Assembly (NCBI GenBank): GCA_009746045.1
Contig: RPFO01000102.1
Span: 2,716,534-2,780,533, forward strand
Origin: Mesostigma viride
Lineage: Eukaryota > Streptophyta > Mesostigmatophyceae > Mesostigmatales > Mesostigmataceae
Direction of reading: 5' to 3'
Length of the DNA stretch: 64,000 bases
Shown one piece after another: positions 3,736 to 26,620 of this stretch. The translations under genes and the position numbers were made by a program. The notes under the pieces are model-generated. The model was not told the origin of the DNA. It ran no database searches and worked only from the letters and a program-made list of their open reading frames with translations. Every line of letters starts with the position of its first letter. The stretch's first letter is position 1.

Positions 3736-6700
3736 ATGGAAAGTATGGCTTTGCCACATGGACTTGCCACGGTACCCGTCGCTCATGGTCATTTGAAAGG
3801 TTCCATTTCCACGTGCTGTAAACTCAGCCACCACGAGGGCATTTTTAGGAAGCATGCTCCGAAGAGATACGCTCTTCGCCTATTTACCAGGAAAGGCGAG
3901 GGCAACAGGGCATATGCGAGCATCCTGGGCACATCGTCACAATTAGAGGCGGCTAACAGGCCCGGCGGCAGCAATGCGTCGTCGTCATTGAACGATATCG
4001 GGCGAGATGCCAGCAATGTACTAGATGGCAGCACTGTGGAGACCGGCATGGGCGGCATGGGCGAGCGCAGAGTTGGACCCTCGCTATCCAAACAGCGCCG
4101 TGACTTCCACAAGTACTGCCGGGAAGGCGCTGGGTTTCGAGCCATTACCGCGTACAAGGACCTGCCGATTGTACGTCGTCAGTAGCTGCCGCATCTTCTG
4201 TCTCCCCGCCTTTGGTAGTCAGCAACAAGTCGGCATGAGGGCTATGCAGCACCATGTGTGGTTTGAGGCATATTTTGGGAAGCTAGCTACTGTAGTAAAA
4301 TAATTAGTGCAAGCACACTCGTATATTCGTATGGATCATTTCCTACTGCCCGTCACCAGAGGCCCCCATTTCGACAGGCGTTAGCAGCGAAAAAAAAATT
4401 CAAACCAGGGAGCAGAAGCATGCGTTCAAGCATGCACGCATGATGGTTGTCTGATTTAGTGTGAGCTGGGCATCCACACGCGTATCCCTATGCGTGCTTG
4501 TTTAGCAAAGCTTAAACCCTGCATGTGCGCCTGAAACCTTGTTAAGGAACAGCGGTAGCCTTTCCTGTTCAGGAAGAAAACTAACCTTCCTCTGTAGACA
4601 AAGACTACCCTCTCCCATTAGGAAGAGGGGGTTCCCTTTTTCTTAGTACAAATGGCACCCGCAGGGTACGTGTAGGTGTGGGTGCGTGTGTGGGTGGTGG
4701 GCGGGTGCTACCCCGACCACTCTCTGTAGGGTGCATGTGTGCTACCGTACATTATAAAATACTCACGCACTGGCTGCCCTAAATCCTCGCTCAGCCCTAC
4801 CCCTCACGCGTGGCCCTACCACCCTCGCATGCCCCGACCCTCACACTGGCTGCCCTCATGCCTCGCGCTTGCTGCCAGCATGCCTCGCACTTGCTGCCTG
4901 CATGCCTCGCACTTGCCGCCTGGATGCCTCACACTGGCTGCCCTCATGCCTTGCGCTTGCTGCCTACATTACTCCCGCGTGCTATCAAACCTACATGGTT
5001 GTACCAAACCTACGCGCTTGCTACCAAACCTACCTGCGTGCTACCAAACCTACATGCTTGCTACTAACCCTACGTGCTTGCTACCAAACCTACCTGCGTG
5101 CTATCAAACCTACATGGTTTTACTAAACCTACGTGCTTGCTATTATACCTATGTGTGTGCTACCAAACCTGCGTGCTTGCTACCAAACTACCTGCGTGCT
5201 ACCAAACCTACATGCTTGCTACTAAACCTACGTGCTTGCTACTTAACCTACATGCTTGCTATTAAACCTACATGCTTGCTACTAACCCTACGTGGTTGCC
5301 ACTAAACCTACGTGCTTGCTACTAAACCTGCGTGCTTGCTATCAATCCTACGTGCTTGTTTTTCAACCTGCGTGCTTACCCTTGACGTACGGCAGAAGCG
5401 CGAGGTCGAGCGCGCCACGCTACTGACCGTGTTGGAGAAGGCGGGTGAGATGGACGCCGCCGTGCAGCTGTTCGAGGAGTTGGCGCGCGAGTCGGGCGAC
5501 CCGCCCACGATGTTTGCGCAGATCAGGTGGGTCCCCCAACAACGACGTTCACGCAGCCCAGCCGCTGTATCGTATCTTCGCTTGATCTGGTGGGTTAGAC
5601 TCACCCACCTAAATTGTGCTGATCAGGTGGGTGACTTGCCCAGCATGCTTGCTCAGATCACGTGGGTAAGCCACCGACCACAATGCTTACATATATTAGG
5701 TGGGTTACTTACCCACCTCAATGTTTGTGCAGATCAGGTGGGGTACTCCCCGTCCATGACCCAATGGAGGCTATGTGTTTCTTTACAAACCATGCACACG
5801 CAGATGAGGCGATACACCCGCGCGGGAGGACAGGATCTGGGTCTGGGGCTGTGGTGTGTGGGTCTCCGCGCAGGTCAGGTGCCATCCAGCATCAGGTGCC
5901 ATCCAGCATGTCAGCTGCCGTCCAGAATGGTTTACTCGTACTCAAATTGTTATAGTGACCTAGTTTCCCTGGGATGCACCCGCTCGGCATGCCATCAGCC
6001 ATGCGTGCATGCGCCGGCTCCCTGGCCATCGCTCCTCACATCCACCAGCCTCTAGTCAATCTGTTACTGTTTATTTTTGGTGTGCCACATAATCAGCCCT
6101 ACCCCCCCCCCTGTGGGATGCATGCATGCTACCCCACAACAGCCGTCCCGCTGAACGCTAATTATACCATGTTCCTGCTATGATAATGATACTATGTCAC
6201 CGGCCTGGTCCCCCACGACAGCCTGCTGAATGCCTACTGTCGCGCGGGACGGATGCCAGAGGCTTGCGTGCTCATGAACAAGATGGACGGTGCCGGCGGG
6301 CGGGAGCTACTCCTTGACCAGCACACACTCGCCGCCATCATCAACGGGTTCGCTGCGGCGGGCAACCACACGTAAGTGCGCCCGCCTGAGTACAGTGTAT
6401 AGTACTAGCAAATGAGTACAGTGTATAGTACTACACTGCGTCACACATGTCAATGGGCTCGCCCCAGCGGGCAACCACACGTAAGTGCGCCCGCATGAGT
6501 ACAGTGTATAGTACTGGCGCATGAGTACAGTGTATAGTACTGGCGCATGAGTACAGTGTATAGTACTGGCGCATGAGTACAGTGTATAGTACTGGCGCAT
6601 GAGTACAGTGTATAGTACTAGCGCATGAGTACAGTGTATAGTACTAGCGCATGAGTACAATGTATAGTACTAGCGCATGAGTACAGTGTATAGTACTAAA

Positions 6701-9589
6701 CTGCGTCACACATGTCAATGGGCTCGCCCCAGCGGGGAACCACCCGTCGATGCGCTGGCGCATAAGGAAGTATTAGTAACTGTAACTGCATTCGTGTTAC
6801 TAGACAACTCACTGCCGTCATCGATGGGTTTGCCGCGGCGGGGAAACACACGTAGATGCGCTAGCATATTTGGTGCATTGTTCCTTGGCCGTGTTTGTCA
6901 TGCTCTGGCCCACCCTTGTGTACTCGTGCGCGCGCTTGCCCACCCTTGTTCCTTGGCCGTGTTTGTCATCCTCTGGTCCACCCTTGTGTACTCGTGCGCG
7001 CGCTTGCCCACCCTTGTTCCTTGGCCGTGTTTGTCATGCTCTGGTCCACCATGGTACACTGGTGTGTACTCTTGCATACTACATCGTTCCTTGGCCTTTG
7101 ACAGCATTTCTTATACTAAAAAGTCGGATTGCTTCACCTGAGGCAACCCCACGTACGTGCGCTAGCAGACAGTTAAGGTATTCTAGACTATCTTGCTACT
7201 ATCAATTACCTCATCATCGATTTACTATCAGTTATGCTTAACGAGTATCAAAGTGGTTTGGATGGCTGGGGAATCCCATGTACGTGCGCTAGCCATGCAC
7301 TTAAGAAAAGATCGATTTGAAACGCAAATGGTATAGATGCCTTTAATGTTTATGGTCGCGCAGGCTGTTACTAAAGCTTTGCAACGCACCTTGAATTCTA
7401 GGCTTTTGCGAGGGCAAATGGAAGGATTCCAGTTGCCTAGTTCTCTAGTGATAAGCCGTCTTCATGGTTGTTGTAACCTTGCCCCGGCTACTGCCCTGTC
7501 TGCCTCCTCCCTGTTTGTTCGCACGTCCTCCTCCCCCCCATGTTCATGCCTCCCCCCCCCCTCGTGCCCCTGCCTCCCCCCCCCTTCGTGCGCTTGCCTC
7601 CACCCCACTCTGCTCGTGCCTCCCCCCTCCTAGACCCCAATAAAGAGAAAGACCCCAATATAGAGATGGACCCCGATATAAACCGCTGTGGTGTATGCTC
7701 GCGCCACCTGAACTCGCCCCCCATGCTGCCCACGCCTCCTGCCCCTCTCTCGCGCCTGCCAGGGACGCCCTGTCCTGGTACGAGCACGCGCGCTCCCGCG
7801 GCATCGGCACCAACGTGGTCGTAACCAACACGCTGCTCAAGGCGCTATGGTGGGTGCATGTGCCGCGCAACAGGCCTGGTGCACTGTTCACCGTTTCGCT
7901 TGGACGAGGCATGCGACATGCTTCTCAGGGCGTGTTGGCGGGCGACAGGAAAGGCATGCTGTTGCGTTCAATGCTGCTCAAGGCGTGTTGGCGGGCGATA
8001 GGAAAGGCATGCTGTTGCGTTCAATGCTGCTCAAGGCGGTGTGGTGGGCGACAGGAAAGGCGTTTTGTTGCGTTCAATGCTGCTCAAGGCGTGTTGGCGG
8101 GCGATAGGAAAGGCATGCTGTTGCGTTCAATGCTGCTCGAGGCGGTGTGGTGGGCGACAGGAAAGGCATGCTGTTGCGTTCAATGCTGCTCAAGGCGTGT
8201 TGGTGGGCGACAGGAAAGGCATGCTGTTGCGTTCAATGCTGCTCAAGGCGGTGTGGTGGGCGACAGGAAAGGCATGCTGTTGCGTTCAATGCTGCTCAAG
8301 GCGGTGTGGTGGGCGACAGGAAAGGCATGCTGTTGCGTTCAATGCTGCTCAAGGCGGCGTGGTGGGTGACAGGAAAGGCGTGTTGTTGTGTGCCATGATG
8401 TGCAAGGCGCTGCGGTGGGTGCATATGCCGCACAACAGGCCTGCCACGTTGTTGACTAGTTAGCTCGGGCAAGGCATCCGGCACGCTGCGCGAGGCATTG
8501 TGGTCGGTGACAGGAACGACGGGCGATTGAGTGCGATGCTGCGCAAGGTGCTGCGGTGAGCAAGAGGTAAAGGCTTGTTTTGGTCAAGGCGCTCTAGTGA
8601 GTGCATGCAAAGGGCTGGTTGTGGCATGAGTGATGCTGTGACCTTTCGCGGTGGTGACGCGTGCCTTGGTGATCTTGCACTGGTGAGTGACGACAAAGGA
8701 ACGCAGGGTGGCCTGCTGGGGTGATGCATCATGACTTCTTAGCTTGGGTGAGGCATCCAACCACCTGGGCGCCCTTGTGAGTGCGACGCGGCTCTAGGCG
8801 TTCTGGTTGGTGCACTGCGTTTACATCTGTATTGCAAGCGAAGGGTTTGTGGTGGTGTGGATAGCAGATAGGGTGGATGGCAGTTAGGGTGGTAAGGGTA
8901 TGATTAGGGTACCTCAGGCGTGATGGTGCTCGCGACACTGCTCAAGGCGCACGGTGGTGGGTGTCGTATGCCAGCATGCAACTAACTACTGACGCGACAA
9001 GTGTCTGCCGTCGTCCCTGGAAGAGGTGCACCGTTGCTTGCTGGCATGTGCGTGGGCGTCACGTGCCAGCACGTAAGTTTTCGCTGACACGACACATGCT
9101 CTGCTGGCTCGTGTGCGTGGTGGATGACACGAAAATTTCCATGCATATGCTTGTGAGGGGTTGAAGGTTCCTTTACTCTATACTGGCACCCACGTGACGC
9201 AGTTACGTGTTAATTAATTAATTAACACATCAATTAATTAATTGATTAATTAATGCTTGTGGTCATACTACTCTGCACATATACCGTATGCTTGTGGTCA
9301 TGGGATATGTTTGTGGGTGACGTATGCCGTGACCTTGGGGGTGTATGTCAACATGCCAGCAAGGGCGGCCAGATGCAGCGCGCGATGGCGGTGCTCACGC
9401 GCCTGAAGGAGAGCGGGCTGGCCGACCTGCGCTCCTTCAACACGGTCATGTCCGGCTGGGCGCGGCTGGGCGAGCCCAAGGAGTGCGCGGCCGTCCTGGA
9501 AGAGTTGAAGGTGGGCTTAAGGTCATTAGGGTTTAGGTGCACGGCCGTCCTGGAAGAGTGGAAGGTGGTCTTAAGGTCATTAGGTTTTG

Positions 9590-9646
<57 letters not shown>

Positions 9647-12600
9647 GTGTGTGTGTTTTTAAAGGTGGGCGGCCGTCCTGGCAGAGTGGAAGGTGGGTCA
9701 AGGTCACGAGGAAAGTAGCCCGTGGGGCTGCAGTCTCCGTGCCGGTGAATAATGTGCGCATGATGTGGGCAACGGCCAAGATCGAGGCGATGAAGAAAGT
9801 ATGAAAGTAGCTTTAGGGAATGGGATGGTGGGGCAGTAGTAGCGTTACCTGCCGTGGGATGATGGGGGCAAGCCCAAGGAGTGTGTGGTGGTCATGGAAG
9901 AGGTCAATGTGGGGAAGAAATTGGTTGTCGTGGACGTGCTGAAAGGCGAGTATGGAAAAGTTGAAGATGAGTAGTACATGTTTGGTCACGGAAGCATTGA
10001 CAGTGACTAATACATGTTTGCTCACGAGAGAGCGGAAGGTGAGCGATGAATGTGTGGTGATGAAAGAGTGGAAGGTAAGTTATGCATGAAGAAAACTATG
10101 GTCACGGAAGCGCGGAAGGTGAGCCATGAATGTGTGGTGATGAAAGAGTGGAAGGTAAGTTAAGCATGAAGAAAACTATGGTCACGGAAGTGCGGAAGGT
10201 GAGTATGAAATGTATGGTCACGGATGAGGGGAAAGCGAGTCACAAAACAGTTATCATGGAAGGGTGGAACGTTAGTGACAAAGGTGTGGTCACGGAAGAG
10301 GGGAAGGTGAGTGGCAGCTATCTTGTCATAGAAGAGCTCCAAGGTGGGTGCAGACTGGGCGAGTGGGCCAGTGGTAGCTGCTGGGCAGGATTGGCGGCAC
10401 CCACCGTGCTCTCATGAATGATGTGTGTTCCTGCATGGGGTGCTTCCACACGTTCCGTTATCCATGGGTATTTCTCATCTGCGTGAGCTTGCGCGGTCTT
10501 GAAGCGGGCCACGCTCGCATCGTTTGGAGGGGTGATGGTGCAGCATGCAGGCATGGGAGACGCCTTGCAAGGACAACCCGTTCCCTCCGCCCCCCCCCCC
10601 CCCCCCCCCCCCCCTGTCTCCTCTTGGTCGTCTTTAACAGGGCTGTCTTGTTACAACTTGCTGATCCGCACATCAGCGGTGGGTCGTTTTCCACACCAGG
10701 TTGCATTACTATGTAGTAGTACTTATAATGCGATGTCATGAACCGCGCAAGTAATGTTCATTTCTGGACAAACCGTGGACACAGGAGAAAAAGACCCCAT
10801 GCTGGTAAGTGACAAATGACGAGAGAAGGGAACGTTTGCTTTGCAATGATAACTCTTTCATCTCCACTTTCCCATATCGTCTCCACCATGACTCATGTGG
10901 TGATCTTATGCTGCTTGCGTCCCAACTGCTGCCACCCCAGGCGGTGGGCCGGAAACCAGACGTCGGATCTTACGGCTGCCTCGTGTCTGCCTACTGTGTG
11001 GTGAGCATCCTGGGGCTGATGGCTGCTAGCTGCAGCCTATGCCGTTGTAACTTGCCTGCGCCATTATATTTTTTGCCTTTGTGGCCATGCGAGTATTAAG
11101 TTATACAGTGTTATTTTTGTGCAAGTCACTGCGTCAAGGATTGCTGAACCAAGGGTATGTTAGGAGTTTTGTTTGGCTCGATCTCTTTCCGTCAGCCATA
11201 AACGCTAATCGATGAATGCGCGCGTCCCGGGGTGTGTCTCGCTTCTCGTTTGGCATTTGCAACTTTATAGGTGTTAGCTTTATTGAGTGTCCAAAGTTAT
11301 TCTAATAATGTAATGTTATTTATCAAAGGGACCAAACGCAAGGTCCCAAGCCTACCTAGATGTTCATGGGCATTTGCGGATGCTGCGTGCAAGAATCCCA
11401 TCAGGTCCGATCTCATAGCCAAGAACTTTGAGCTCACGTCGTGGTCGGGAAGTCGTCGAAATGTGGCGGACTCGTGAGCAATTTGGGGCAAGCATGTTTA
11501 TTCATGTTGAGAAGGACGGGGATGTCTCTATCTCAACATGAATGTATGAACCTGTACCCTTCGCTCAGTGGATTACTTTTCAACATCTACCATTTGGCTA
11601 AGTAGGTAATCAATGATTGCCCACTTGCCACCCATATTGCCGTCGCCAAATGCTGCTGCTGCTGCTGCCTCTGCCTGCTGCCTAATGCTCCTTCTGCTGG
11701 TGCTGGTGCTGCCAACTGCTGCCAAGTGCTGCTGCTGCGGGTGCTGCTGGGATGCAATAATATCTCAAGGGATGCTTATACCGCAGCCGCGCCCGCCACC
11801 ACCACCACCATCACCACCATGCATCGCGTCTGCAGGCCAAGGACTTGGACGGAGCGCTCAAGGTGGTGGAGGGGATGAAGGCGGCAGGCGTGCGCTGCAA
11901 CGCCGCCATCTACTCCACCATCATGAATGGGCGGGTGGAGATGGGGGACATCGCGGGCGGGTTTGCGATGCTGGACCGGATGACCGAGGACCGGTGAGGA
12001 AACGGATAAGAATTCAGAACAGCGTAAAGAATAGGATAATAAGATATCTGGTACTGCGATGATGTTTATTTATTATTCTATGGTTGTTGTCATGATGATG
12101 GAGGACCGGTGAGGAATAGGCCCAAACGATTAGGGTGATAAGATTTCTTGTATCACAAGGCTTCTTATCATTCTATGCTTGTCGTCATGACGAAGACGGG
12201 TGAGGAAGAGGACCAGACAAGGGGTATCACGATCCCCCTAGGATAATGACTACGAAAGTTGTTTAGTGCGATGCATCTCAACCTCTCTGTGCGTAACCTT
12301 TCGACAAACGACCGATGAGGAACAGGCCGGCGCAAGAGCTTTTTGTTGGAACGTGTACAAATATGTCTGCTACTGCATGGGTATCCCTCCCTCTGTGAAT
12401 TGCGCGGTGGCGGAGGACCGGTGGGGGTCAGGACCAGGCAAGAGCTTTAGTGATACGGTGATAGGAGCGTGGTATGGTAGCCATACATCGCGGTGCTTCT
12501 GATCATTCTATGCTCGAATCCATCCCTCGGCTGCAGAATTGCTCTATAAGCATAAAGAGTCGTGTCATGCTATCTATTAGCATAAAGAGTAGTGTCATGC

Positions 12601-15600
12601 TGTCTATTAGCATAAAGAGTAGTGTCATGCTATCTATTAGCATAAAGAGTAGTGTCATGCTATCTATTAGCATAAATAGTAGTGTCATGCTGTCTATTAG
12701 CATAAAGAGCAGTGTCGTGCTATCTATTAGCATAAAGAGTAGTGTAATGCTATCTATTAGCATAAAGAGTCGTGTCATGCTGTCTATTAGCATAAAGAGT
12801 CGTGTCATGCTATCTATTAGCATAAAGAGTAGTGTCATGCTGTCTATTAGCATAAAGAGTAGTGTCATGATACTGTCCACTTTCAAGACAGGATGCAGGG
12901 AGCCCGATGGTTGCTTTCCTGGTGGCCCCAGTCCTCTCTACGCGGGTTGCTTTAGAAAGCACACAAACGTATGGTAGAATCAGAATCAGCACCCTGTGTG
13001 GAGAGCCTGATAAGCCTGGCCCCGTGTGGCTACCCTTTCGTTCTATCTGTTTCCTATGTTTCCTATGTTTCCTATGTTTCCTATGTTTCCTATGTTTCCT
13101 ATGTTTCCTATGTTTCCTATGTTTCCTATGTTTCCTATGTTCCCTATGTTTCCTATGTTTCCTATGTTTCCTATGTTTCCTATGTCTCCTATGTTTCCTA
13201 TGTTTCCTATGTTTCCTATGTTTCCTATGTTTCCTATGTTTCCTATGTTTCCTATGTTTCCCATGTTTCCTATGTTTCCTATGTTTCCTATGTTTCCTAT
13301 GTTTCCTATGTTTCCTATGTTTCCTATCTTTCCTATCTTTCTCATCTTTCCTACCTTCCCTATCTTCTTTATCTTCCCTATCTTCCCTATCTTCCCTATC
13401 CTCCCTATCTTCCCTATCTTCCCTATCTTCCCTATCTTCCCTATCTTCCCTATCTTCCCTATCTTCCCTATCTTCCCTATCTTCCCTATCTTCCCTATCT
13501 TCCCTATCTTCCCTATCTTCCCTATCTTCCCTATCTTCCCTATCTTCCCTATCTTCCCTATCTTCCCTATCTTCCCTATCTTCCCTATCTTCCCTATCTT
13601 CCCTTTCTTCCCGCGTTGGCACAACTCTGCGGAGCACAGTAGAATCCTAGTTAACAGCGTGCTGGGAGCCTGATGCAGTGTTTGATTAAAATCGATGAAT
13701 GTAATTTTTTCGTTCCTACTCCCCAGGATCGCGCCGGACGTGTACACGTACACGACGCTGGTGAAGGCCTGCTGCGAGAGCGGGGACCTGGACCGCGCGC
13801 TGGCGCTCGTCACCACCATGAAGGAGGGCGGCGTGCGGCCCAACGCGCGCACGTACGCCACGCTCATGAACGGCTGGGCGCGCCGCGGCAACTACCACAT
13901 GGCGCAGCAGACGGTTCGTCGTTGATAGCACTTGTAGCGTTGGTATAGTAATCTTACCAAGTGGCTGAATGCGCAGCTGCCACACGACGCAGCAGACGGT
14001 GCGTCTATATCATTGTCATATGATTCGTATTGTAATGCTAATAACAACATTACGTTATATTACGTTTTGTTACATCACGCTTTGTTATACGTTTTATTAT
14101 CAGGACTAATCGGTTTCGCGGCTTTGTCCCCCCTCCATCCATCCACGGGAATATGTGCTACATGATCTCCCAACGGAGTCATGTTATAATTTAATTTAAT
14201 TTAATTTAATTTAATTTAATTTAATTTAATCAGGACTTCGGAAGTGGTTCTTGGGTGAACGGGCAGCTACCGCACGGCGCAGCCGACGCTGTGTGGATAT
14301 TTTCACGATCCCATTACAGAAGTAGTGTTCCTGGTCGAGATGGATTATAACGATTAGGAGTAATACTAGTACTTTTCAGTGGTTGGAAGGACTTGTACCG
14401 CAGGAAGCCCACGACAGGCAAGAACGTTATCGTAAGCGAACCCGCTATAGAACCACTTCGGTTGCCATCATGCCATGCATGGTGCAGGTGGCCCAGGGTG
14501 GAATCTGACAGTTGGATTGCACAGTGGTTGCTGCGCGAGGCGATATCAGATAAGTGGGTGCCAGACAGCCGGTGGGAACCCCCGATGGATAGCTGGCGTT
14601 GGCTTACTAGTATAACTAGTAATAATACGCCTGTTATTACTCTAGTATACTTCAATTTTGTTTGTGGCGGAATTTTACGATTTTTTTTAAAAAAAGTAAC
14701 TTGTTTTTCTCCTGATTTTTTTTTCTTTAGGCGCGGGTCCAAACTGTCACAGATGGGGGTGCTGTCACCAGGACCTACGCTTGCTTCTGACTTCTGACCA
14801 CCCGGTTTCGTTGGGGCACATTCATATGCCAGCGTTGATGGAATCTACATGCCTTGCAGATGGAAGGAATGACCAAAGCTTGCCGTATCATGCTCCCTCT
14901 TCGAAGGCCAGGACTTATACGCTACCGTTGCATTTTAGTTAGGTCTCCGCTATATATGTGTGTGACAGAGGTATCATAGAGATATGTTCGTTTCAAAGTA
15001 TCAAATAGATAGATCACCAAGGTGTTCCGCATGTCAAACCGCGCGTTGACCGCTAATGCTAAATACTGTAGCTGCTATTTATCAACGTACGCGTGTGCGT
15101 GACAGATGGAAGAGATGACCAAGGCGTGCCGCATGACCAAGCCGCCACTGGTGGCGTTCAACTTGCTGCTGAAGGCGGCAGTGCGGGGGTCTGACCTAAA
15201 GCAGGTGAGCGCGCAAGGGGGCCAGTGCGGGGTTCTGACCGCAAGCAGGTGGGAGCACACCGTGCGTGCACGTCACGGCATGTTACAGTGACCAGCAAAT
15301 GTTACAGTATCACCACGCCCAAATAACACAACGCCCTGTCTGGTGTTTTGCATGGCGTTGAGGCTACACTTCGCATGTCCCTGACCTCGCGGATGACGTC
15401 ATCTTAGTTCTCATCATATCAATAATATTTTTTACAAAATTACTTAAAATCATGCACTCATCAGCTGTTGCCCATCTGCTCGCGACTCCCTCGCTTGAAC
15501 TTGCCCCGCTCCCTGCTCTCTGCACCCTGCATCCCGCAGGCGCTGCAGGTGCGCGCGAGCATGCGTGCCCAGGGCGTCAAGCCCGACAACTACAGCTACT

Positions 15601-18600
15601 CCACGCTCATCGAGGGAGCCGCGGGGGCGGGCAGCCTGAGCCTGGCGTTTGACCTGTTCAACGAGATGAAGGTATGTGGTATCATGCTGCTCTCAACCAC
15701 TCTCTGGGGTAGTGTGACCTGTTCCACGAGCTGAAGGTGTGTGGTATCATGCTGCTCTCAACCACTCTCTGGGGTAGTGTGACCTGTTCAAAGTAAAACC
15801 TTCAACTTGGAGTGGTTAGATTCAGGTTATTAGAGGGGGGAAGTATTAGTAGGGAAGCTTTTTTTTTGCCTTCCTCTGTTTGTACTTATTTATGTGCTTT
15901 GCGGTAGTTCTTTCAGCGCTTGCTACAGATGTTGTTTTTAGTAGCAACCCAGTCCATACTTTTTGCATCCTCGTCTTGACCTCCCTTCAACATTTGCATA
16001 GATATGTATATCTCATATGCTGTCACTGTGAGTCTCAATACAGTGCAATATGCTGTCACTGTGGGCTGTAATACAGCACAGGGAGAGGCGCATTGCACTT
16101 AACAATATAGGACCCACGCTGACAATATACTAGTGCTATTGGTAGTACATATGCCAGTACCAGTCTAAGACTAACAGAGCGCATCCACGGGTGTAGTTTG
16201 TGTATGGACTATTTGGTGCTGCTAATGCAAGGACTATACCACTCTGCAGGTATAACCGGTGCAAAGGCTGTAGGTCACTGCCACCATGTGCGCGCCGCCG
16301 ATTGCTGTGTGGGCACATAGGTGCTGCTTGTGTCCTTTAGTACTTCTATTTGATTATATTATCTTACGCACAGTTAGTTGCTATGCATGCACCGTGGTGG
16401 ATCATTTTGCATGAAGCATCCCATCACTTGTTGCATCTATGCTATCTACCATGTGCGCTATCTATCATTTGTGCTATCTGGCACATGCGCCATCTACCAT
16501 GTGTGCTATCTATCATGTAATTTTTATTCATGAAGCATCCTATCATTATTTGCATGAATGCTGCCTTTCGTATGTGCTATCTATCATGTGTGCCATTCAT
16601 ATTGCCATGCTATCTATAAAGCGTGCTATCTGACACGTGCACTATCAATCATGCGTGCTATCTATCATGCGTGCTTTTGACATCCGTGCTAACTATCATG
16701 CGTGCTATCTATCATGCGTGCTATCTGACACGCGTACTATCTATCACGTGCGCCATCCGCATTTCGATCCGGGGCGTGGATCTCAGGAGTCGGGCGTTCG
16801 CGCGGGCGTCATCGAGTACGGGGCCATCATCAAAGCGTGCTGGTGGGTGGGCATTTTCTTTTCTGCATCATCAAAGCGTGCTGGTGGGTGGGCATGTTCT
16901 TCGCTGCATCATCAAAGCATGCTGGTGGGTGGGCGTTTCCATGGTAGAAGCATTCGCTGACCATATGGGATAACAACCACACGCGATGACCTAGACATGC
17001 GTGCGAGTTGGGCATTTTCTTTGTTATAATTGCTTGCCAACAGTGTGGGAAAACAATGAGGCACGAATGACATAGGCGTGCGGGTGAGATGTGGCCCGAT
17101 GCCAAGAATGTGGTGGCAAGTCATCTGATCATTCTGGCGGCTGTCACCCAACCTCAATGTGCTGAGATTCTCCCAGGGTGTGTTGACGGGTGGGCATTGT
17201 CATTTGGATGACCAATCATTGGATGAACAAACTCCATGGCATGGCAGGAGGCACGTGCTTGTCAATGATGCTGACAGCATACTATTTTACATCGCCAAGC
17301 ACATACTAATCAACTCTACTGTCATGGAGGCATGCTGGCCAGCTATACGCGGTTAGCATGAGCATCAGCATCAGCATCAGCAGGTAGCATCAGCACCAGC
17401 ATCAGCAGTGAATAGGTATATAGCATCCGCATTGGTCCATGCATATGAAGCATCAAGGGAGGTATGTGCAAATTTCATGCTTGGGTGGGAAAAAAAATGA
17501 CCTGCTTGGCTTGCTTGCTTCCCTGCCTGCTGCTGACTTGTGGCCTTGCCTGTTAGAGGCAGAGGTTGCCTTTTGCTAAGGCTGGGTACCGCTACAATGG
17601 GTCACTAAGTGCGTCACAGTGGCCGCCCGGAATGTGTTATGTTCGCCGGTTGCATTTGACAGCAAGTGCTTGGAGGGCGAGGCTGTCGTGTGCAACGTCT
17701 CCTCATCATGCCCTGCTATACTGGTTACAATTGTCTTCTGTTTGGGTTGCGTGCCCCAGCAAGTGCTTGGAGATGGACACGGCGCTGCGGCTGGCCCGCG
17801 AGATGGTCGCTGCTGGCATCCCCCACAACTCGCGCACGTACACCATCCTGGTAGACGGTGCGTGGCCCCTTGGCCCACAAACACCTTTCTCATCGCCTCC
17901 TCTCTGCTCAGCATGCTGTTCCACACCTCCGTTCTCCTCGCCTCCGCTCTGCTCGCCTCCGTTCTCCTCGCCGTGTTGGCCTACAACAACCTTTCTATAC
18001 AATTTTTTTCATCAGCCGACCTTAAAATATGAATGCCCTCTTTAATCCTAGCATCCCACTTATGTGTACTCTCCACGCGTTGGTTCACCTCAAACCTTTC
18101 TCAACACCACTCGATGTGTTGTGCTCGATGTTGCTTTCCTCTCCACGCTGCCTTTCTCTACACCGCCCTGCTCCTCGCTACCCTGATTATCCTGCCTCCT
18201 TGCGTACGCCTAGTACTTTGTATGGTCGCGATGTTGGGAGGACCTTTCTTGCGTCAAGGCTTTTTTGCGTGTAGCACTTTTGTCGCTACATCTGACATGT
18301 CTGCCGCTTGGCCGTCTCCAATGTTCCTATTTTGACTCAGAGAATTATGTCTCATCTTTGTCTCACATGTCCCAAAATGCGCCTATTGTTAGTCCCTTAA
18401 CTCTCGTGCTACTGATCTGTAAGTGAGATGCGGGCTGTAGCTCAGTAAAGATCTGCCTGGCATCTGCCTGTCTGTCCCCGTTGCCCGTCTGTTAGATTGT
18501 TTTATCTTATTAGCAAAATGTTATATATGCCTGACATGGTTTGTTCTTCGCCTGTAATGAAATATAACACTTCTGCTGTCATGCTCCCCTTGTCCCCGCC

Positions 18601-21600
18601 CCCCCCCCCTCCCCCCATATCTCCGCATTTCAAATATGCTTTTGTATTTAAATCAGCGAGCTGCCTCCGTTCCTGCCTGCTAATCAACATGGTGTTCGCT
18701 CTCCTTTCAACTTTCTCTATTCTTCACGCCGTCTGCAGGCTATACGCGCATGGGGGATCTGCCCTCAGCCTACATGCTCGTGGAGAAAATGAAGGTGCGT
18801 GCCCACGGGCAATCAGCCCTCACGGTAGACCGTGGCTACGGTGTGTGGCTGGGTGATTGTTGGCATTACCGTCATCGTACTTGTCATCACCACGATCAGG
18901 GTCCCATGATTTATTGTTACCGTGCCATGTGTTGTGTTACCTGAACGGCTCGTTATTGCCACACGGCTGACACTTGTGGGCGTGCTATAGCTTCGCAAGG
19001 CAACCACCCAAGCGTCGTAGTGACCAGTGCAGTGACCAATGGGTCTAGTGCAGTATGCTACAGCTTCGCAAGGCAACCACCCAAGCGTCGTAGTGACCAG
19101 TACAGTGACCAATGGGTCTAGTACAGTATGCTACGGCTTCGCAAGGTAACCACCCAAGCGTCATAGTGACCAGTACAGTGACCAATGGGTCTAGTGCAGT
19201 ATGCTACAGCTTCGCGAGGCAACCACCCAAGCGTTGTAGTGACCAGTACAGTGACCAATGGGTCTAGTGCAGTATGCTACAGCTTCGCAAGGCAACCACC
19301 CAATCGTCGTAGTGACCAGTACAGTGACCAATGGGTCTAGTGCAGTATGCTACAGCTTCGCAAGGCAACCACCCAACAAATATAATAACCTGTGGGTCCA
19401 TGCTACAGCTTTCAAGGCAAACACCCAACAGTCAACAGCGACCAGTACAAAGATCATCGGGTTCCATGCTGGAAGCTTTTGCAAGGCAACCGCCTTCATA
19501 TTCAAATTATATCTGGATTTAAAGTGCCGTTCGTGCCTCCCTGTTGGGCCTTGCTGGCAGCTCTACTGATCATATCTGAGCGCATCTGCTCGTCTCCAAA
19601 AACTTATCTTGGGGTGCAGGCGGACGGCCTTCATCCCACGGCCAGCACCTACACTTGCCTCGTGAACGGCCACTGCAAGGTTTGTCAGCACTCCTAAAGC
19701 TACCAAGTCGGCATCAGACCAAGACCAGGACGATTTAGAGGCTATGCTACTCATCCAATTCGAGAACACGAAGCATGTCACTAGAGAATAGGCAGAGACT
19801 ATGGATGGAGAATAGGCAGAGACTACGGATGGAGAATAGGCAGAGACTACGGATGGAGAATAGGCAGAGACTACGGATGGAGAATAGGCAGAGACTATGG
19901 ATGCAGAATAGGCAGAGACTACGGATGGAGAATAGGCAGAGACTATGGATGGAGAATAGGCAGAGACTACGGATGGAGAATAGGCAGAGACTACGGATGG
20001 AGAATAGGCAGAGACTACGGATGGAGAATAGGCAGAGACTACGGATGGAGAATAGGCAGAGACTATGGATGGAGAATAGGCAGAGAGTACGGAGCATCGG
20101 GCATGGGGAAGCGGGGTAGAGAAAGTGGGGAGCCCGCCACAGGCAGGATGACCAGTCGTCTACCATATTTTTAGCATTCTTGCTCCTTGTGGGGTTTGCA
20201 CTGTCGTTGCTGTTGTTGTCGATGCTGGTCATCGTTGTTGTTGTCAGACCTGTTGTTAGGACTCAGTACAGCATTTGGCAGCTGGCATCATGAGCCTTCC
20301 CAGAAGCGCCCACCCGCACTTCCTGCCACGACTGGCAGCCCGTCACAGCACCACACCCAGAATGCTCGCAAAAGCATAAAAAAGGGGGGGGGGGGTTGTA
20401 GCTGAAGTCCTGTCATATGCAGAATGGAATCTTAAGTATATTATAATTTCATTTATCATGGGCACCGCTCATCCCTGGCCCCAATGCCCCTCTTGTGTCT
20501 CCGCCGCGCTGAACTGGCCAGCATGGTTACATTCCAGCACCTCTCTTCCCGTCGCCAGCTCCTTTAGAGGCGCCAGAGGCCCGGAGAGGCTCGTGAAGAA
20601 GGCGCTGAATGCGTGATTTCGACAGTCAATCATCTGGAGGGCACAGAGCATGACAGCTGGCACTCCATATCCACCTGTGTCGATTTTATTCCCTTGCTAA
20701 GTAGGTTACAGGATGCCATATGCCTCTGGGGGTCATACCGCCATCCCCTAAGAGCCTAAAAGCACATGCCCATCCAGCTGGGGTTAAACTCCAGCGGAGG
20801 TAAGGCCCCGCCAGGGAGGGTGCTGCGTAATCATATGTGCAGACATTCTAGTATAAGCTTGTGATAGCTCAGCTGAAAAGTCTCGTCAAGAGGATGTATG
20901 ATCGTGTGTACGACATCGTTTTCTTCGTCTGCAAGTCAGCAATCGGGAAGTTTCAGGAGCTAAAAATAGGTCGCGGCCCCCAGGAGGCACCTGGCTTGAC
21001 TTTCTCCCACATTTCATGGCATGGAAGGGATGTTCCGCCATGGATTAGTTGTTTTGAAAGCCCCAGGTCAAACAAAAGTTTTACTATTTTAAGGTTGTTA
21101 TGTTTGCATGTGGCTGTTTCCATGCAAAGTTTAGCCTCAAAGTTCATAACTTGAGCTATCCACCTCTAAAAAGCAAGCCGACTGAACAGGCTAGCTCGCC
21201 ATGGGTGTATCTAATCGGCCACAAAGACTCAGCTTCAGAAGCTTTGTTTGTGGTCATGGCTAGGTTTGGGGGTGCCCCCCCCCATTAGGCCTGAAGTCTG
21301 GGCCTTTTGGCTGGGCCGGGTGCACCTTTTGGCGGGGCGCCAGTTGGCTCCAAAGTCCTGGCGCCGGGACTGAAGGATACCTACGGTCCACCTTAAACGA
21401 ACGCCCTAAGAGCATGTGCCCATCCTCAAGCGGGTCTAAACAAATCCCTATTTCCCTCATGGTCCCCTTCCCCCTGGGCAAATGCCGCAGATGGGTGACA
21501 TCGCACTCATCAGCCAGTTCCAACTTCAGCAGGCTTCATGCATGCCTCCATGTCCTGTAGCTGGTACAGAAGCCTTTTGCCACTCAGCTCCAAGGTTCCG

Positions 21601-24600: not shown

Positions 24601-25897
24601 TTCCTAGTTGATTCTTGGGTTGTTCCATGGGTAGTTGTTCCTAGTTGATTCTTGGGTTGTTCCATGGGTAGTTGTTCCTAGTTGATTCTTGGGTTGTTCC
24701 ATGGGTAGTTGTTCCTAGTTGATTCTTGGGTTGTTCCATGGGTAGTTGTTCCTAGTTGATTCTTGGGTTGTTCCATGGGTAGTTGTTCCTAGTTGATTCT
24801 TGGGTTGTTCCATGGGTAGTTGTTCCTAGTTGATTCTTGGGTTGTTCCATGGGTAGTTGTTCCTAGTTGATTCTTGGGTTGTTCCATGGGTAGTTGTTCC
24901 TAGTTGATTCTTGGGTTGTTCCATGGGTAGTTGTTCCTAGTTGATTCTTGGGTTGTTCCTGCGTCACGCCTACATTCATGTTGCTGGTCTCATGGCCGTA
25001 GATTAAGGTACGGGGACGAGGCCGGGACAAGTCGTGGAATTTGCGTGGAATGATGTATGGTAGCATCCATTTATATCACCATTCCCAAACCGGTAACTGG
25101 TCATTTTTCATGAGTATATTAATTAGTTCATAAATTTACACGTAGACTGTGTCACGTGAGCATCAGTCCTCATTGGGATGGAGATGGGATGGGGTGGATG
25201 GATCTAGCTATCTAGCTTCTAATCACAGGGTTGCTGAGCATAAGTCCTCATTGGGATGGAGATGGGATTCATGAATATACTATGTATATTAGTACTTATC
25301 CATGGAGAATGATTTGGTTACGGAGGTGGGATCAGGGATATCAAACGCGTTAAGTGCGACTTCGGAGGGGCCCTAGCAAGGCAGGACAGCTAGCCAGCAC
25401 GCACATCAAACCACCACATACAGGCAGGGAACACGTCTGCCAGCCTGCCTGGGGGCCATGCATACTATCCTGGATTGGATTTCCACTAGACTGGAAGTGA
25501 TAGCAGCAACGCCAGCGAGCGCAACTAAGCAAGAATTATGAAAAAAAGCATGCTTTCAGGCCAGACCCTGGTTGCCCATTTAGTTATCTTAGCTATGGTA
25601 GTCATGTTTGCTATGTTGTCTTCGGTGAAGTAAGCAGCAGGACATTGTACTAACAAAGAAGTCAGCACCTTGCAGTCTCGATCTCCTACTTTCAGAAGCA
25701 TGCCAGTTATCAGTGCTTGGCATGCCCGGTATCTACTATGTGCAGTTTATTCATTGTTATTCTACTATTTGTGGTGCGTCACTTGATGTGCGCAGGCGAC
25801 ATCCAGCATAACGGGCGCCGTGAAGGACACGACTGTCATTGCTGAGTTAAAAGCGTTGGCGTCTACCGCTCCAGAGAGTGAAACGGAAGACCAGTAA
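3736..25897 (+). CDS. P-class pentatricopeptide repeat (PPR) protein, 18 exons, about 772 aa
   Basis: Exons: 3736-4170, 5396-5526, 6222-6371, 7763-7849, 9360-9510, 10941-11000, 11836-11993, 13727-13913, 15106-15204, 15540-15671, 16787-16842, 17760-17857, 18739-18794, 19620-19679, 21851-21944, 22558-22642, 23831-24008, 25796-25897 (TAA). All 17 introns are GT-AG, and joining them gives one 2,319-nt frame. Exon 1 encodes a basic, Ser/Ala/Arg-containing N-terminus with few acidic residues at first, compatible with an organelle transit peptide. From exon 2 there are 15-16 consecutive repeats of about 35 residues, for example DVYTYTTLVKACCESGDLDR and NARTYATLMNGWARRGNYHM. P-class PPR proteins bind organelle RNA and act in its processing, splicing, stability or translation. 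From memory only, repeats 12-16 plus the C-terminal LLDR..EMRDAGI segment resemble land-plant PPR4, but no RRM is visible. Start: the first in-frame ATG, with another at 3745. The 17 introns are unusual for a PPR gene. Confidence 0.9.
4840..5370 (+). repeat. Tandem repeat of about 20-22 bp in PPR intron 1
   Basis: About 25 diverged units related to ACCAAACCTACGTGCTTGCT, running up to about 25 bases from the 3' splice site at 5394-5395. The last units (CTGCGTGCTTACC) merge into the pyrimidine-rich acceptor region. Open frames through it (ACYQTYML-like) are repeat artefacts. Confidence 0.9.
5570..5910 (+). repeat. Degenerate copies of the exon 2 end plus 5' splice site (PPR intron 2)
   Basis: Exon 2 ends TTTGCGCAGATCAG and is followed by GTGGGT. 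Related strings recur in the intron at about 5585, 5622, 5655, 5698 and 5733. The best is at about 5724-5742, where TTTGTGCAGATCAGGTGGGG repeats both the exon end and the splice donor. The unit is irregular, about 35-75 bp. Confidence 0.75.
6380..6705 (+). repeat. Tandem repeat of about 26 bp in PPR intron 3
   Basis: Units of GAGTACAGTGTATAGTACT followed by a short GGCGCAT or AGCGCAT linker repeat about ten times. The block lies among copies of the exon 3 / intron 3 junction (6433-6495 and 6700-6765). Confidence 0.9.
6433..7292 (+). repeat. Five degraded copies of the exon 3 / intron 3 junction
   Basis: The real junction (exon end 6371) reads GCGGGCAACCACAC then GTAAGTGCGC. Copies lie at about 6433-6495 (nearly exact at the junction), 6700-6765, 6803-6868 (longest, also matching the preceding ATCAACGGGTTC segment), 7118-7165 and 7252-7292. 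The most distant copies keep little more than CCCACGTACGTGCGCTAGC. A separate 68-bp repeat (three units starting at 6883, 6951 and 7019) sits between them. Confidence 0.8.
7830..8470 (+). repeat. 53-bp tandem array derived from the exon 4 / intron 4 junction
   Basis: Exon 4 ends CTGCTCAAGGCGCTATG and continues with GTGGGTGCAT. The intron then holds eight to nine units of about 53 bp, each with ATGCTGCTCAAGGCG followed by GTGTTGGCGGGC or a GTGGGCGAC variant. A longer copy at about 8395-8450 also repeats the first intron bases (CATATGCCGCACAACAGGCC). Weaker versions continue to about 9040. Confidence 0.9.
9520..10345 (+). repeat. Repeated copies of the exon 5 / intron 5 junction, plus a (TTA)n tract
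   Basis: Exon 5 ends GCCGTCCTGGAAGAGTTGAAG then GTGGGC. The motif GTCCTGGAAGAGTGGAAGGT recurs at about 9545 and a variant with GGCAGAG at about 9676. More decayed forms follow (GTCATGGAAGAGGTCAATGT at about 9890, then a GGAAGCGCGGAAGGTGAGC type and a GATGAAAGAGTGGAAGGTAA type) up to about 10340. Nearly all keep AAGGT(G/A)AG or AAGGTGGG, a good splice-donor core. A (TTA)17 microsatellite lies at 9594-9646. Confidence 0.85.
10583..10613 (+). repeat. Poly-C tract in PPR intron 5
   Basis: A run of about 25-30 cytosines after CCGTTCCCTCCG. Length is unreliable in any assembly. It lies about 330 bases before the exon 6 acceptor. Confidence 0.85.
12090..12450 (+). repeat. Scattered copies of the exon 7 / intron 7 junction
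   Basis: Exon 7 ends ATGACCGAGGACCG followed by GTGAGGAA. Similar strings appear at about 12096 (ATGGAGGACCGGTGAGGAAT), 12187 (ATGACGAAGACGGGTGAGGA), 12308 (GACCGATGAGGAACAGG) and 12412 (GAGGACCGGTGGGGG), at intervals of about 90-110 bp. Confidence 0.8.
12544..12872 (+). repeat. 30-bp tandem repeat in PPR intron 7
   Basis: Eleven units of 30 bp containing AGCATAAAGAGTAGTGTCAT, with scattered single-base changes. It is read through in two frames because the period is a multiple of three. It is not coding. Confidence 0.95.
13040..13612 (+). repeat. Two-part 9-bp pyrimidine minisatellite before PPR exon 8
   Basis: First half: about 30 copies of TTTCCTATG. Second half (from about 13330): about 28 copies of TTCCCTATC, with a short transition zone of mixed units. 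It places some 570 bases of pyrimidine-rich sequence 110 bases before the exon 8 acceptor. Periodic open frames on both strands (FPMFPM, GNIGNI, EDREDR types) are artefacts. Confidence 0.95.
13975..14300 (+). repeat. Two copies of the exon 8 / intron 8 junction
   Basis: Exon 8 ends ATGGCGCAGCAGACG followed by GTTCGT. At 13981-14006 the intron has CGACGCAGCAGACGGTGCGT, and at about 14268-14296 a weaker copy CACGGCGCAGCCGACGCTGT. Between them sits a retroposon tail at 14103-14230. Confidence 0.75.
14103..14230 (+). mobile_element. Short retroposon 3' end with hairpin and (TTTAA)n tail
   Basis: The segment shares TCGGTTTCGCGGCTT, CCTCCATCCATCCA and ATATGTGCTACATGAT with minus-strand copies at 27690-27800 and 63040-63125. 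The hairpin at 14161-14183 has CATGA pairing TCATG, a bulged T, CTCC pairing GGAG and a CAAC loop. It is followed by TTATAATTTAATTTAA repeats, as expected for a reverse-transcribed tail. It lies inside PPR intron 8. Confidence 0.75.
14850..15045 (+). repeat. Two upstream copies of the intron 8 / exon 9 junction (3' splice site)
   Basis: Real exon 9 begins after GTGACAG with ATGGAAGAGATGACCAAGGC. At 14855-14892 the intron has CAG followed by ATGGAAGGAATGACCAAAGC and TTGCCGTATCATG. A weaker copy at about 15008-15040 reads GATCACCAAGGTGTTCCGCA. These duplicate the acceptor plus 35 or more exon bases, not a donor. Confidence 0.8.
15205..15800 (+). repeat. Donor-junction copies in PPR introns 9 and 10
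   Basis: Intron 9: the junction TCTGACCTAAAGCAG / GTGAGC (exon end 15204) is repeated at about 15223-15252 as TTCTGACCGCAAGCAGGTGG. Intron 10: the junction GACCTGTTCAACGAGATGAAG / GTATGTGG (exon end 15671) is repeated in a near-identical unit of about 75 bp starting at about 15717, and a third truncated copy starts at about 15780. The intron 10 copies include about 55 intron bases with almost no change, so that duplication looks young. Confidence 0.85.
16435..16760 (+). repeat. Irregular ATCTATCATG repeat in PPR intron 10
   Basis: About twenty diverged units of 14-17 bp related to GTGCTATCTATCATGC, ending about 30 bases before the exon 11 acceptor at 16785-16786. No coding sense is visible. 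Confidence 0.8.
16825..16945 (+). repeat. 41-bp triplication of the exon 11 / intron 11 junction
   Basis: Exon 11 ends GCCATCATCAAAGCGTGCTG followed by GTGGGTGGGC. Copies begin at 16825 (real), 16866 and 16907, each keeping CATCATCAAAGC(G/A)TGCTG plus GTGGGTGGGC. The last is followed by a decayed relative at about 17000-17030. At 17655-17685 the same intron also has a copy of the next acceptor (CAG then CAAGTGCTTGGAG, as in exon 12). Confidence 0.9.
18990..19380 (+). repeat. 73-bp tandem repeat in PPR intron 13
   Basis: Five to six units of 73 bp starting at GCTTCGCAAGGCAACCACCC, about 95% alike. A partial relative (GCAAGGCAACCGCC) lies at about 19483. I see no link to an exon junction here. 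Confidence 0.9.
19783..20095 (+). repeat. 24-bp tandem repeat in PPR intron 14
   Basis: Thirteen units containing GGAGAATAGGCAGAGACTAC (or ACTATG), period 24 bp, very little divergence. Open on both strands because 24 is a multiple of three. Not coding. Confidence 0.95.
21484..21508 (+). repeat. Copy of the exon 15 acceptor junction inside intron 14
   Basis: The string GCAGATGGGTGACATCGC at about 21486 matches the real acceptor and start of exon 15 (GTGCAG then ATGGGCGACATGGCG at 21851). It lies about 360 bases upstream, so it is a possible decoy 3' splice site. Confidence 0.6.
21564..21731. repeat. Foldback: 84-nt imperfect inverted repeat in PPR intron 14
   Basis: The left arm starts GTACAGAAGCCTTTTGCCA and the right arm ends with the reverse complement of GTACGGAAAGCTTTTGCCA. 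The arms meet in the palindrome ACTGCGCAGT (21644-21653) with essentially no loop. By eye about three quarters of positions match, and many differences are transitions that would leave G-U pairs in RNA. Shared blocks include TTTTGCCA, ATTACC, ATCGCTGGC and AAGT. Could be a small foldback transposon or a small-RNA hairpin precursor; I see no clear terminal duplication. Confidence 0.8.
22797..22905 (+). repeat. 36-bp triplicate repeat in PPR intron 16
   Basis: Three units with CCAATAGCCCTGTAGTTACC and CTTCATAAGGCTGCCCC, period 36 bp. A second small duplication, GGAAACCCGCAGGCAGTGGG, follows at about 23008-23070. Confidence 0.85.
24296..24959 (+). repeat. Near-perfect 37-bp minisatellite, about 18 copies, PPR intron 17
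   Basis: The unit begins GGGTAGTTGTTCCTAGTTGA and ends TTGTTCCAT. About 18 copies follow head to tail with no visible differences, so the array expanded or was homogenised recently. There are no spacers, which rules out a CRISPR-like array. Copy number may be an assembly estimate. Confidence 0.95.
25140..25330 (-). mobile_element. Short AATT-tailed repeat (CACGTGAC family), two partial copies in PPR intron 17
   Basis: On the minus strand each piece carries GATGAGGAC-type or AATGAGGACT sequence, then ATGCTCACGTGAC(A/G)CAGT and an AATTAAT tail. The copies here (about 25145-25215 and 25225-25275) match others at 57000-57130, 57360-57530 and 29695-29745. Read in that sense they end in an AT-rich tail, so they are probably retroposon 3' ends. 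Confidence 0.6.
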
Positions 25898-26473: not shown

Positions 26474-26620
26474 ATGCTCATGAATTGAATTGAATTGAAT
26501 TGTAACATAACTCCGTTGGGAGTATATGTAGCACATAGCCCTTGAGAGGGGGCATATGGCCTATCATACATCCTAAGCTACTTCCTGCAAGGGTTTATGC
26601 TCATGGATGCAGCTCTACAC
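26474..26620 (-). mobile_element. Hairpin-tailed retroposon 3' end with (AATTC)n-type tail
   Basis: Read on the minus strand it runs ACCCTTGCAGGAAGTAGCTT, a GATAGGCCATATGCCCC block, GTGCTACATATAC, the hairpin (26506-26528: CATA/TATG, bulged T, ACTCC/GGAGT, CAAC loop) and a tail of AATTC repeats at about 26481-26504. The same order is found on the plus strand at 60850-60965, the 3' end of a longer element, so this is a 5'-truncated copy. Confidence 0.75.

Follow-up and report, generated by a model that had tools for sequence, protein, structure and literature searches.

Within the window (the whole 64-kb stretch of Mesostigma viride DNA that was analyzed) lies a gene for a PPR protein, whose exon limits were placed by hand, following the open frame.

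3736..25897, + strand: PPR protein gene; 18 exons, 17 GT-AG introns, open spliced frame of 772 aa; Pfam families PPR_2, PPR_1 and PPR

The preliminary description of this DNA had placed the start at 5396; the gene actually starts upstream, at 3736. Exons are short (56-187 nt for 17 of the 18), introns are about 1 kb long, and CAG stands at all 17 hand-set acceptors. An open reading frame on the minus strand at 2277-2477, which reads GSGMSVAAGMSTF, had no match in a Pfam search; it is loosely reminiscent of sirtuins. Four open reading frames of the window outside the PPR gene were searched against Pfam without a match, and an RNA family search of the 64 kb gave no match at gathering scores. The mean of the 17 PPR introns, 1167 bp, fits the published mean intron length of 1142 bp for M. 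viride NIES-296, as given in an excerpt of PMC6947507.

Two repeats were observed along the way. Intron 17 contains, at 24293-24959, a 37-nt unit repeated 18 times in identical copies (100% matches), which either arose very recently or is an artefact of assembly. One stretch, recognized by eye, recurs at 14148-14187 (in inverse orientation), 26502-26541 and 51050-51520, where it is part of an array with a 74-nt unit; it is perhaps a small dispersed repeat.

Copies of splice junctions in the PPR introns

Each donor junction (last 40 exon bases plus first 10 intron bases) and each acceptor junction (the mirrored query) was compared with its own intron and with the 16 other introns of the gene, so that a win for the own intron is expected by chance in about 1/17 per side. 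The donor junction was best matched by its own intron in 9 of the 17 introns (2, 3, 4, 5, 7, 8, 9, 10 and 11) and the acceptor junction in 3 (8, 11 and 14). At least one copy of an own junction was thus present in 10 of 17 introns, which bears out the earlier claim of such copies in at least nine. The twelve junction copies are as follows.

5721..5742, + strand: copy of exon 2 end and donor in intron 2 (score 39 vs 21 for the best other intron; real donor at 5526/5527)
6450..6490, + strand: copy of exon 3 end and donor in intron 3 (score 57; tandem arithmetic u+v-L = 4; more copies follow)
7918..8419, + strand: 53-nt minisatellite in intron 4, the unit including a copy of exon 4 end and donor (best copy 8026-8048)
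9537..9574, + strand: copy of exon 5 end and donor in intron 5 (TRF array 9483-9588 begins 28 nt within the exon)
12094..12116, + strand: copy of exon 7 end and donor in intron 7 (score 36)
13973..14005, + strand: copy of exon 8 end and donor in intron 8 (score 41)
14857..14888, + strand: copy of acceptor and exon 9 start in intron 8 (CAG kept)
15215..15251, + strand: copy of exon 9 end and donor in intron 9 (tandem arithmetic exact)
15712..15746, + strand: copy of exon 10 end and donor in intron 10 (TRF array 15650-15791, 65-nt unit, begins within the exon)
16866..16893, + strand: copy of exon 11 end and donor in intron 11 (TRF array 16825-16938, 41-nt unit, begins within the exon)
17660..17675, + strand: copy of acceptor and exon 12 start in intron 11 (CAG kept)
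21481..21504, + strand: copy of acceptor and exon 15 start in intron 14 (score 28 vs 24 for the best other intron)

The copy in intron 14 is the weakest of the twelve and was not among the 3' copies found with exon-only queries.

The same copies in other genes

The genome comprises 440 Mb in 2243 pieces, and genes were modelled with a purpose-written protein-to-genome aligner with intron states, which recovered all seven introns of the first PPR stretch given to it. The first set comprised 115 introns: 17 from the PPR gene, 68 from seven CCT genes and 30 from twelve kinesin genes. The kinesin models, guided by one paralogue, are the least sure of the gene sets, and 30 of their 75 modelled introns were kept after filters (45 dropped). 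For the CCT introns of the first set the splice-site filter consisted of the aligner's own scores alone; CCT-gamma contributed 6 of its 8 modelled introns. A replication set was drawn from four more chaperonin genes (28 of 30 introns kept), among them CCT-theta, which is absent from the first set. The CCT-eta gene of the assembly is about 80% similar to moss and streptophyte-alga proteins.

With adjacent introns of the same gene excluded from the comparison (the PPR-only test had included them), the own intron won at the donor in 9 of 17 PPR, 20 of 68 CCT and 12 of 30 kinesin introns (41/115 pooled), and at the acceptor in 3 of 17, 7 of 68 and 8 of 30 (18/115 pooled). Copies were also found in the replication set, at 6 donors and 5 acceptors of 28 introns. 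Junction copies are therefore present in all four gene sets sampled, and among the sampled introns the matches of junction windows are specific to the own intron. Introner elements are recognized by near-identical sequence of introns in unrelated genes; the comparison here covered junction windows. In the pooled 115 introns, 32 had a win at the donor only and 9 at the acceptor only (discordant introns, p 4e-4); this overall excess of donors over acceptors was not repeated in the 28-intron replication set (6 vs 5).

Two side observations concern the sample itself. Across the 115 introns, 99% of acceptors read CAG and 99% of donors have G at +5, figures that partly reflect selection, since the aligner prefers both features and the 30 kinesin introns had to pass a filter for CAG/TAG and +5 G. 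The contig pairs C887/C1641 and C2/C622 gave matches with equal scores and model positions; they are likely to be uncollapsed haplotypes or duplicates, and could serve to date duplications.

Tandem duplication at exon edges

If a copy arose by tandem duplication, the exonic and intronic parts of its match should add up to the offset of the copy. Among 29 donor cases this arithmetic held within 20 nt in 12, and a 13th exceeded the offset by 31. The clear cases, that is, the 12 and the 13th as in repeated arrays, are tandem duplications. The remaining 16 fell 37-255 nt short, as would be expected of older or interrupted copies. The earlier claim that introns lengthen by local duplication across splice sites is supported, and it extends to other genes of the genome. 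The most striking array that begins inside an exon is in CCT-gamma intron 6, where nine copies of a 48-nt unit bear the exon end and GT. In the 115 introns, TRF arrays run across six donors and one acceptor.

The copied exon context is short (median 28 nt, maximum 62 nt in the 29 cases). An intron copy was found for 32 of 114 exon windows at -30..0 from the donor, for 13 of 113 at -45..-15, for 1 of 109 at -60..-30 and for none of 98 at -75..-45; windows at 60-90 nt (0/85) and 75-105 nt (0/71) had none either. From the acceptor, the corresponding counts were 0/99 at 45-75 nt, 1/88 at 60-90 nt and 1/71 at 75-105 nt. Duplication of whole exons with both splice sites does not fit these counts, exon windows 45-105 nt from the junctions being almost without intron copies.

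In intron 5 of one kinesin gene (C1), the acceptor junction has been copied eight times upstream of the acceptor in use, and seven of these copies have CAG intact; the nearest lies at 59 nt, and the nearest five are spaced by about 59-63 nt.

The preliminary description had also held that copies near the junction are less decayed than distant ones. We did not find this. In 102 copies from 42 introns, identity was not significantly related to distance (rho -0.16, p 0.11), and in 20 introns with at least two copies the nearest copy was better than the farthest in 9, worse in 8 and tied in 3, copies too near the intron end being excluded. PPR intron 5 and C1702 intron 3 do look graded with distance.

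Short-range copies at donors and acceptors

A copy within 85 nt was present at 14 of 143 donors and at 1 of 143 acceptors (Fisher p 7e-4), the cut-off having been chosen post hoc after the first 115 introns (11 vs 1). The 28 later introns had 3 donors and 0 acceptors with a copy in this range, which agrees in direction in numbers too few to stand alone. When the nearest copy lay at 85 nt or more, donors and acceptors were similar (25 vs 19, p 0.41). This short-range difference is a new point, absent from the preliminary description. The nearest donor copies begin at 33 nt; the nearest acceptor copy is at 59 nt and the next at 85 nt.

The acceptor gap is best read as the length of sequence that has to accompany a functional 3' splice site. 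In six introns with an acceptor copy matching the full unit, subtracting the exon part from the offset gives about 38-73 intron bases for the first copy, while clean donor duplications carry as few as 11 (PPR intron 9); pyrimidines climb toward the AG from about -70. A complete splice signal would accordingly need about 10 intron bases at the donor and about 40-70 at the acceptor. Short duplications would be removed at acceptors because the whole region of branch point, pyrimidine tract and AG is required there. In simulations with a 15-nt acceptor minimum, short acceptor copies arose in 46-93 of 800 introns vs 65-127 of 800 for donors (ratio 0.6-0.8), and with a 60-nt minimum in 0-3 of 800. 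The latter simulation gave distant acceptor copies at 0.23-0.52 of the number of donor copies, which is fewer than observed (19 vs 25). A higher-rate run of the acceptor-minimum simulation produced donor copies in 210 of 800 introns, compared with 39 of 143 observed.

It is also possible that the difference follows from the order of synthesis, in that splice sites would be used first come, first served: transcription reaches the real donor ahead of any inner copy of it, but reaches an inner acceptor copy ahead of the real acceptor. The smaller number of acceptor than donor copies in the 115 introns agrees with this idea. However, it predicts an acceptor deficit at all distances, and that beyond 85 nt is not significant; in intron 5 of the C1 kinesin gene eight acceptor copies persist upstream, AG being intact in seven; and the overall difference did not recur in the 28 introns of the replication set. 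We consider this explanation unlikely.

Junctions compared with the intron interior

An own-intron copy was found for 0.33 of 30-base windows at donors, 0.13 at acceptors and 0.28 in the interior (414/1460). The preliminary description had implied that junctions are richer in copies than the rest of the intron; junction windows proved roughly no richer than interior ones, and TRF arrays, which cross 6 of 115 donors, cross 96 of 919 nearby points and 478 of 2868 interior points (16.7%). With 40-mers in the PPR gene alone, 9 of 17 donors and 3 of 17 acceptors had a copy, compared with 341 of 864 interior windows, or 225 of 835 when the search went downstream only and low-complexity windows were excluded. 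The wording that introns are filled with copies was also too strong. The self-similar part of an intron has a median of 10% of windows (mean 18%) in the 115 introns, 37 of which have none.

The first 60 intron bases had a copy in 0.14-0.18 of windows, below the donor value of 0.33, and this local donor excess depends on the similarity class of the copies. Near-identical copies were no commoner at donors (0.04-0.06) than in the adjoining intron (0.03-0.05), with 0.15 in the array-rich interior. The excess over the adjoining intron appeared in the middle class (0.14 vs 0.03-0.05) and among the most diverged copies (0.16 vs 0.09-0.12). Exon copies remain recognizable longer because the exon stays unchanged, and in a neutral simulation with frozen exons the near-identical donor class (0.03-0.08) fitted the data, as did the adjoining intron. 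However, simulations whose interior was matched to the data gave donor values of 0.09-0.24 vs the observed 0.33; a higher-rate run reached the donor level (0.37) but raised the interior to 0.44, against 0.28 observed. Diverged donor copies, present at -15..+15 in 34 of 115 introns, were 1.8-2.8 times as frequent as in the interior-calibrated simulation, which predicts about a third to half of them. The earlier caution that the bias could partly reflect visibility therefore holds in kind, since the donor excess sits in diverged copies, although neutral simulations calibrated to the interior under-predict it 1.8- to 2.8-fold. We leave the unexplained excess as a model-dependent residue.

This residue might mean that conserved exon edges act as permanent templates, so that diverged copies of exon end and donor persist or are re-seeded beyond the neutral expectation, either by a ratchet in which the unaltered exon repeatedly restarts homology-driven duplication or through the retention of decoys that bind U1. 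We regard this as rather improbable; if it were true, donor-like decoys would stand in rows along the introns. A mutational hotspot for duplication at donor junctions, for example from co-transcriptional R-loops or breaks at exon ends, could likewise account for donor windows exceeding both the first 60 intron bases and the interior-matched simulations. Since a hotspot would be expected to leave its clearest mark on the youngest copies, it is disfavoured by near-identical copies, which have no donor excess over the nearby intron, and by TRF arrays, which cross donors less often than nearby or interior points. On these two grounds the hotspot was rejected as very unlikely. The junctions are mostly not special, and no special junction-duplicating mechanism is supported.

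State of the copied splice sites

Splice dinucleotides were scored in copies found by exon-only queries in the 115 introns. GT was kept in 45 of 64 donor copies and AG in 20 of 27 acceptor copies; the duplications do leave decoy splice sites, as the preliminary description had proposed, and they do so in other genes as well. In donor copies from 25 introns, identity to the master was 0.82 for GT, 0.86 for +5 G, 0.83-0.87 for the exon part and 0.42 for +7..+16, copies too near the intron end or whose match stopped short being excluded. The motif AGGTRNGY occurs 58 times on the sense strand of the 115 introns, compared with 27.3 +- 3.9 in 20 shuffles of that strand.

Such figures could suggest that exon ends with donors are retained for a function, for example as decoy U1 snRNP sites against premature polyadenylation or in setting the pace of splicing: GT and +5 G match as well as the exon part while +7..+16 drops, AGGTRNGY is in excess over shuffled sequence, and diverged donor copies exceed the neutral prediction. 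However, GT and +5 G are nearly invariant in the masters, so that neutral copies keep them too; a simulation without selection retained them at 0.77-0.84, like exon bases, and the intron-derived +7..+16 at 0.55-0.69 vs the observed 0.42. AGGTRNGY also occurs 46 times on the antisense strand, and GT is lost in 19 of the 64 copies. We give this possibility very little weight, and no case for a function of the decoys is made.

As protein homology suggests, the outer splice sites are likely to be those in use. The decoys are probably ignored through exon definition, in which the pair of sites around a short exon is chosen. Exon definition tolerates complete copies on both sides, and is in keeping with an architecture of short exons and introns of about 1 kb.

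Discussion

We propose, with a probability of roughly 0.7, that neutral local tandem duplication lengthens the introns of this alga and is allowed to extend over a junction as long as a complete splice signal stays with the exon. Duplications of roughly 30-120 nt would strike anywhere in the intron. A breakpoint in the last tens of exon bases would place just inside the intron a copy bearing the exon end and donor, and the mirror event at the 3' end a copy bearing the acceptor and exon start. With the outermost site staying in use, the exon would be unchanged and the event neutral. The copy would then decay as intron while the exon stays conserved, and would remain visible for longer. The donor would have to keep only about 10 intron bases, the acceptor its whole branch point, pyrimidine tract and AG region. 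The neutrality of the junction duplications is inferred, as are the use of the outer site and the role of exon definition.

Several results count against this proposal: the excess of diverged donor copies, the 16 of 29 donor cases whose match is shorter than the tandem offset, positions +7..+16 that are less alike than simulated, the overall donor excess that was not repeated, the shortage of distant acceptor copies in the 60-nt simulation, and the acceptor copy at 59 nt in intron 5 of the C1 kinesin gene.

The ingredients are known from other systems. Introns grow through tandem repeats in the case of intronic minisatellites, which share with the present copies head-to-tail local duplication, arrays with units of tens of bases, and decay; here, however, some arrays start in the exon, and each of their units includes a donor. 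Tandem exon duplication, which underlies mutually exclusive exons, likewise copies exon sequence into an intron, whereas in our introns the duplicated part is limited to the exon edge and a single splice site. Tandem splice sites (NAGNAG, GYNGYN) and decoy or pseudo splice sites are known classes in which several similar candidates lie next to the used site; unlike tandem splice sites, the copies described here lie tens to hundreds of bases off and bring exon context. Tandem splice sites are also named in excerpts of Lehmann et al. 2010 (PMC2891723).

The same excerpts describe how introns are gained when an exon segment with a proto-splice site is duplicated in tandem. As in that process, exon sequence with AG/GT is duplicated in tandem and one copy becomes intronic; unlike it, the event extends the edge of an intron already present and creates none, and the copy adjoins its own exon. 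That the copies mark the birth of the introns themselves, by duplication of an exon segment holding AG, the boundary and GT, is a reading with a known mechanism (PMC2891723) and one case in its favour: in CCT-zeta (C1407) intron 13, of 341 nt, an extra copy of the start of the downstream exon is found 319 nt ahead of the acceptor and about 22 nt past the donor. This case apart, the reading is rejected as highly improbable for the nearest copies. It expects the end of the upstream exon to be copied at the intron's 3' end, but the nearest such copies were 33-292 nt past the donor (39 introns), and the nearest copies of the downstream exon start were 59-446 nt ahead of the acceptor in 19 of 20 introns.

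A limited literature search gave no report of junction copies lengthening introns, and is too thin to claim absence from print; the ingredients are known, and for their combination this search found no report.

Neutral duplication across junctions would give introns a simple way of growing at their edges. With about a third of the sampled donors next to local copies of themselves, the genome offers a natural experiment in spliceosomal choice between near-identical sites. How far from the real site an acceptor copy must lie to be tolerated gives an outline of the sequence that a 3' splice signal needs, and the decoys make exon definition directly testable against order of synthesis with RNA reads.
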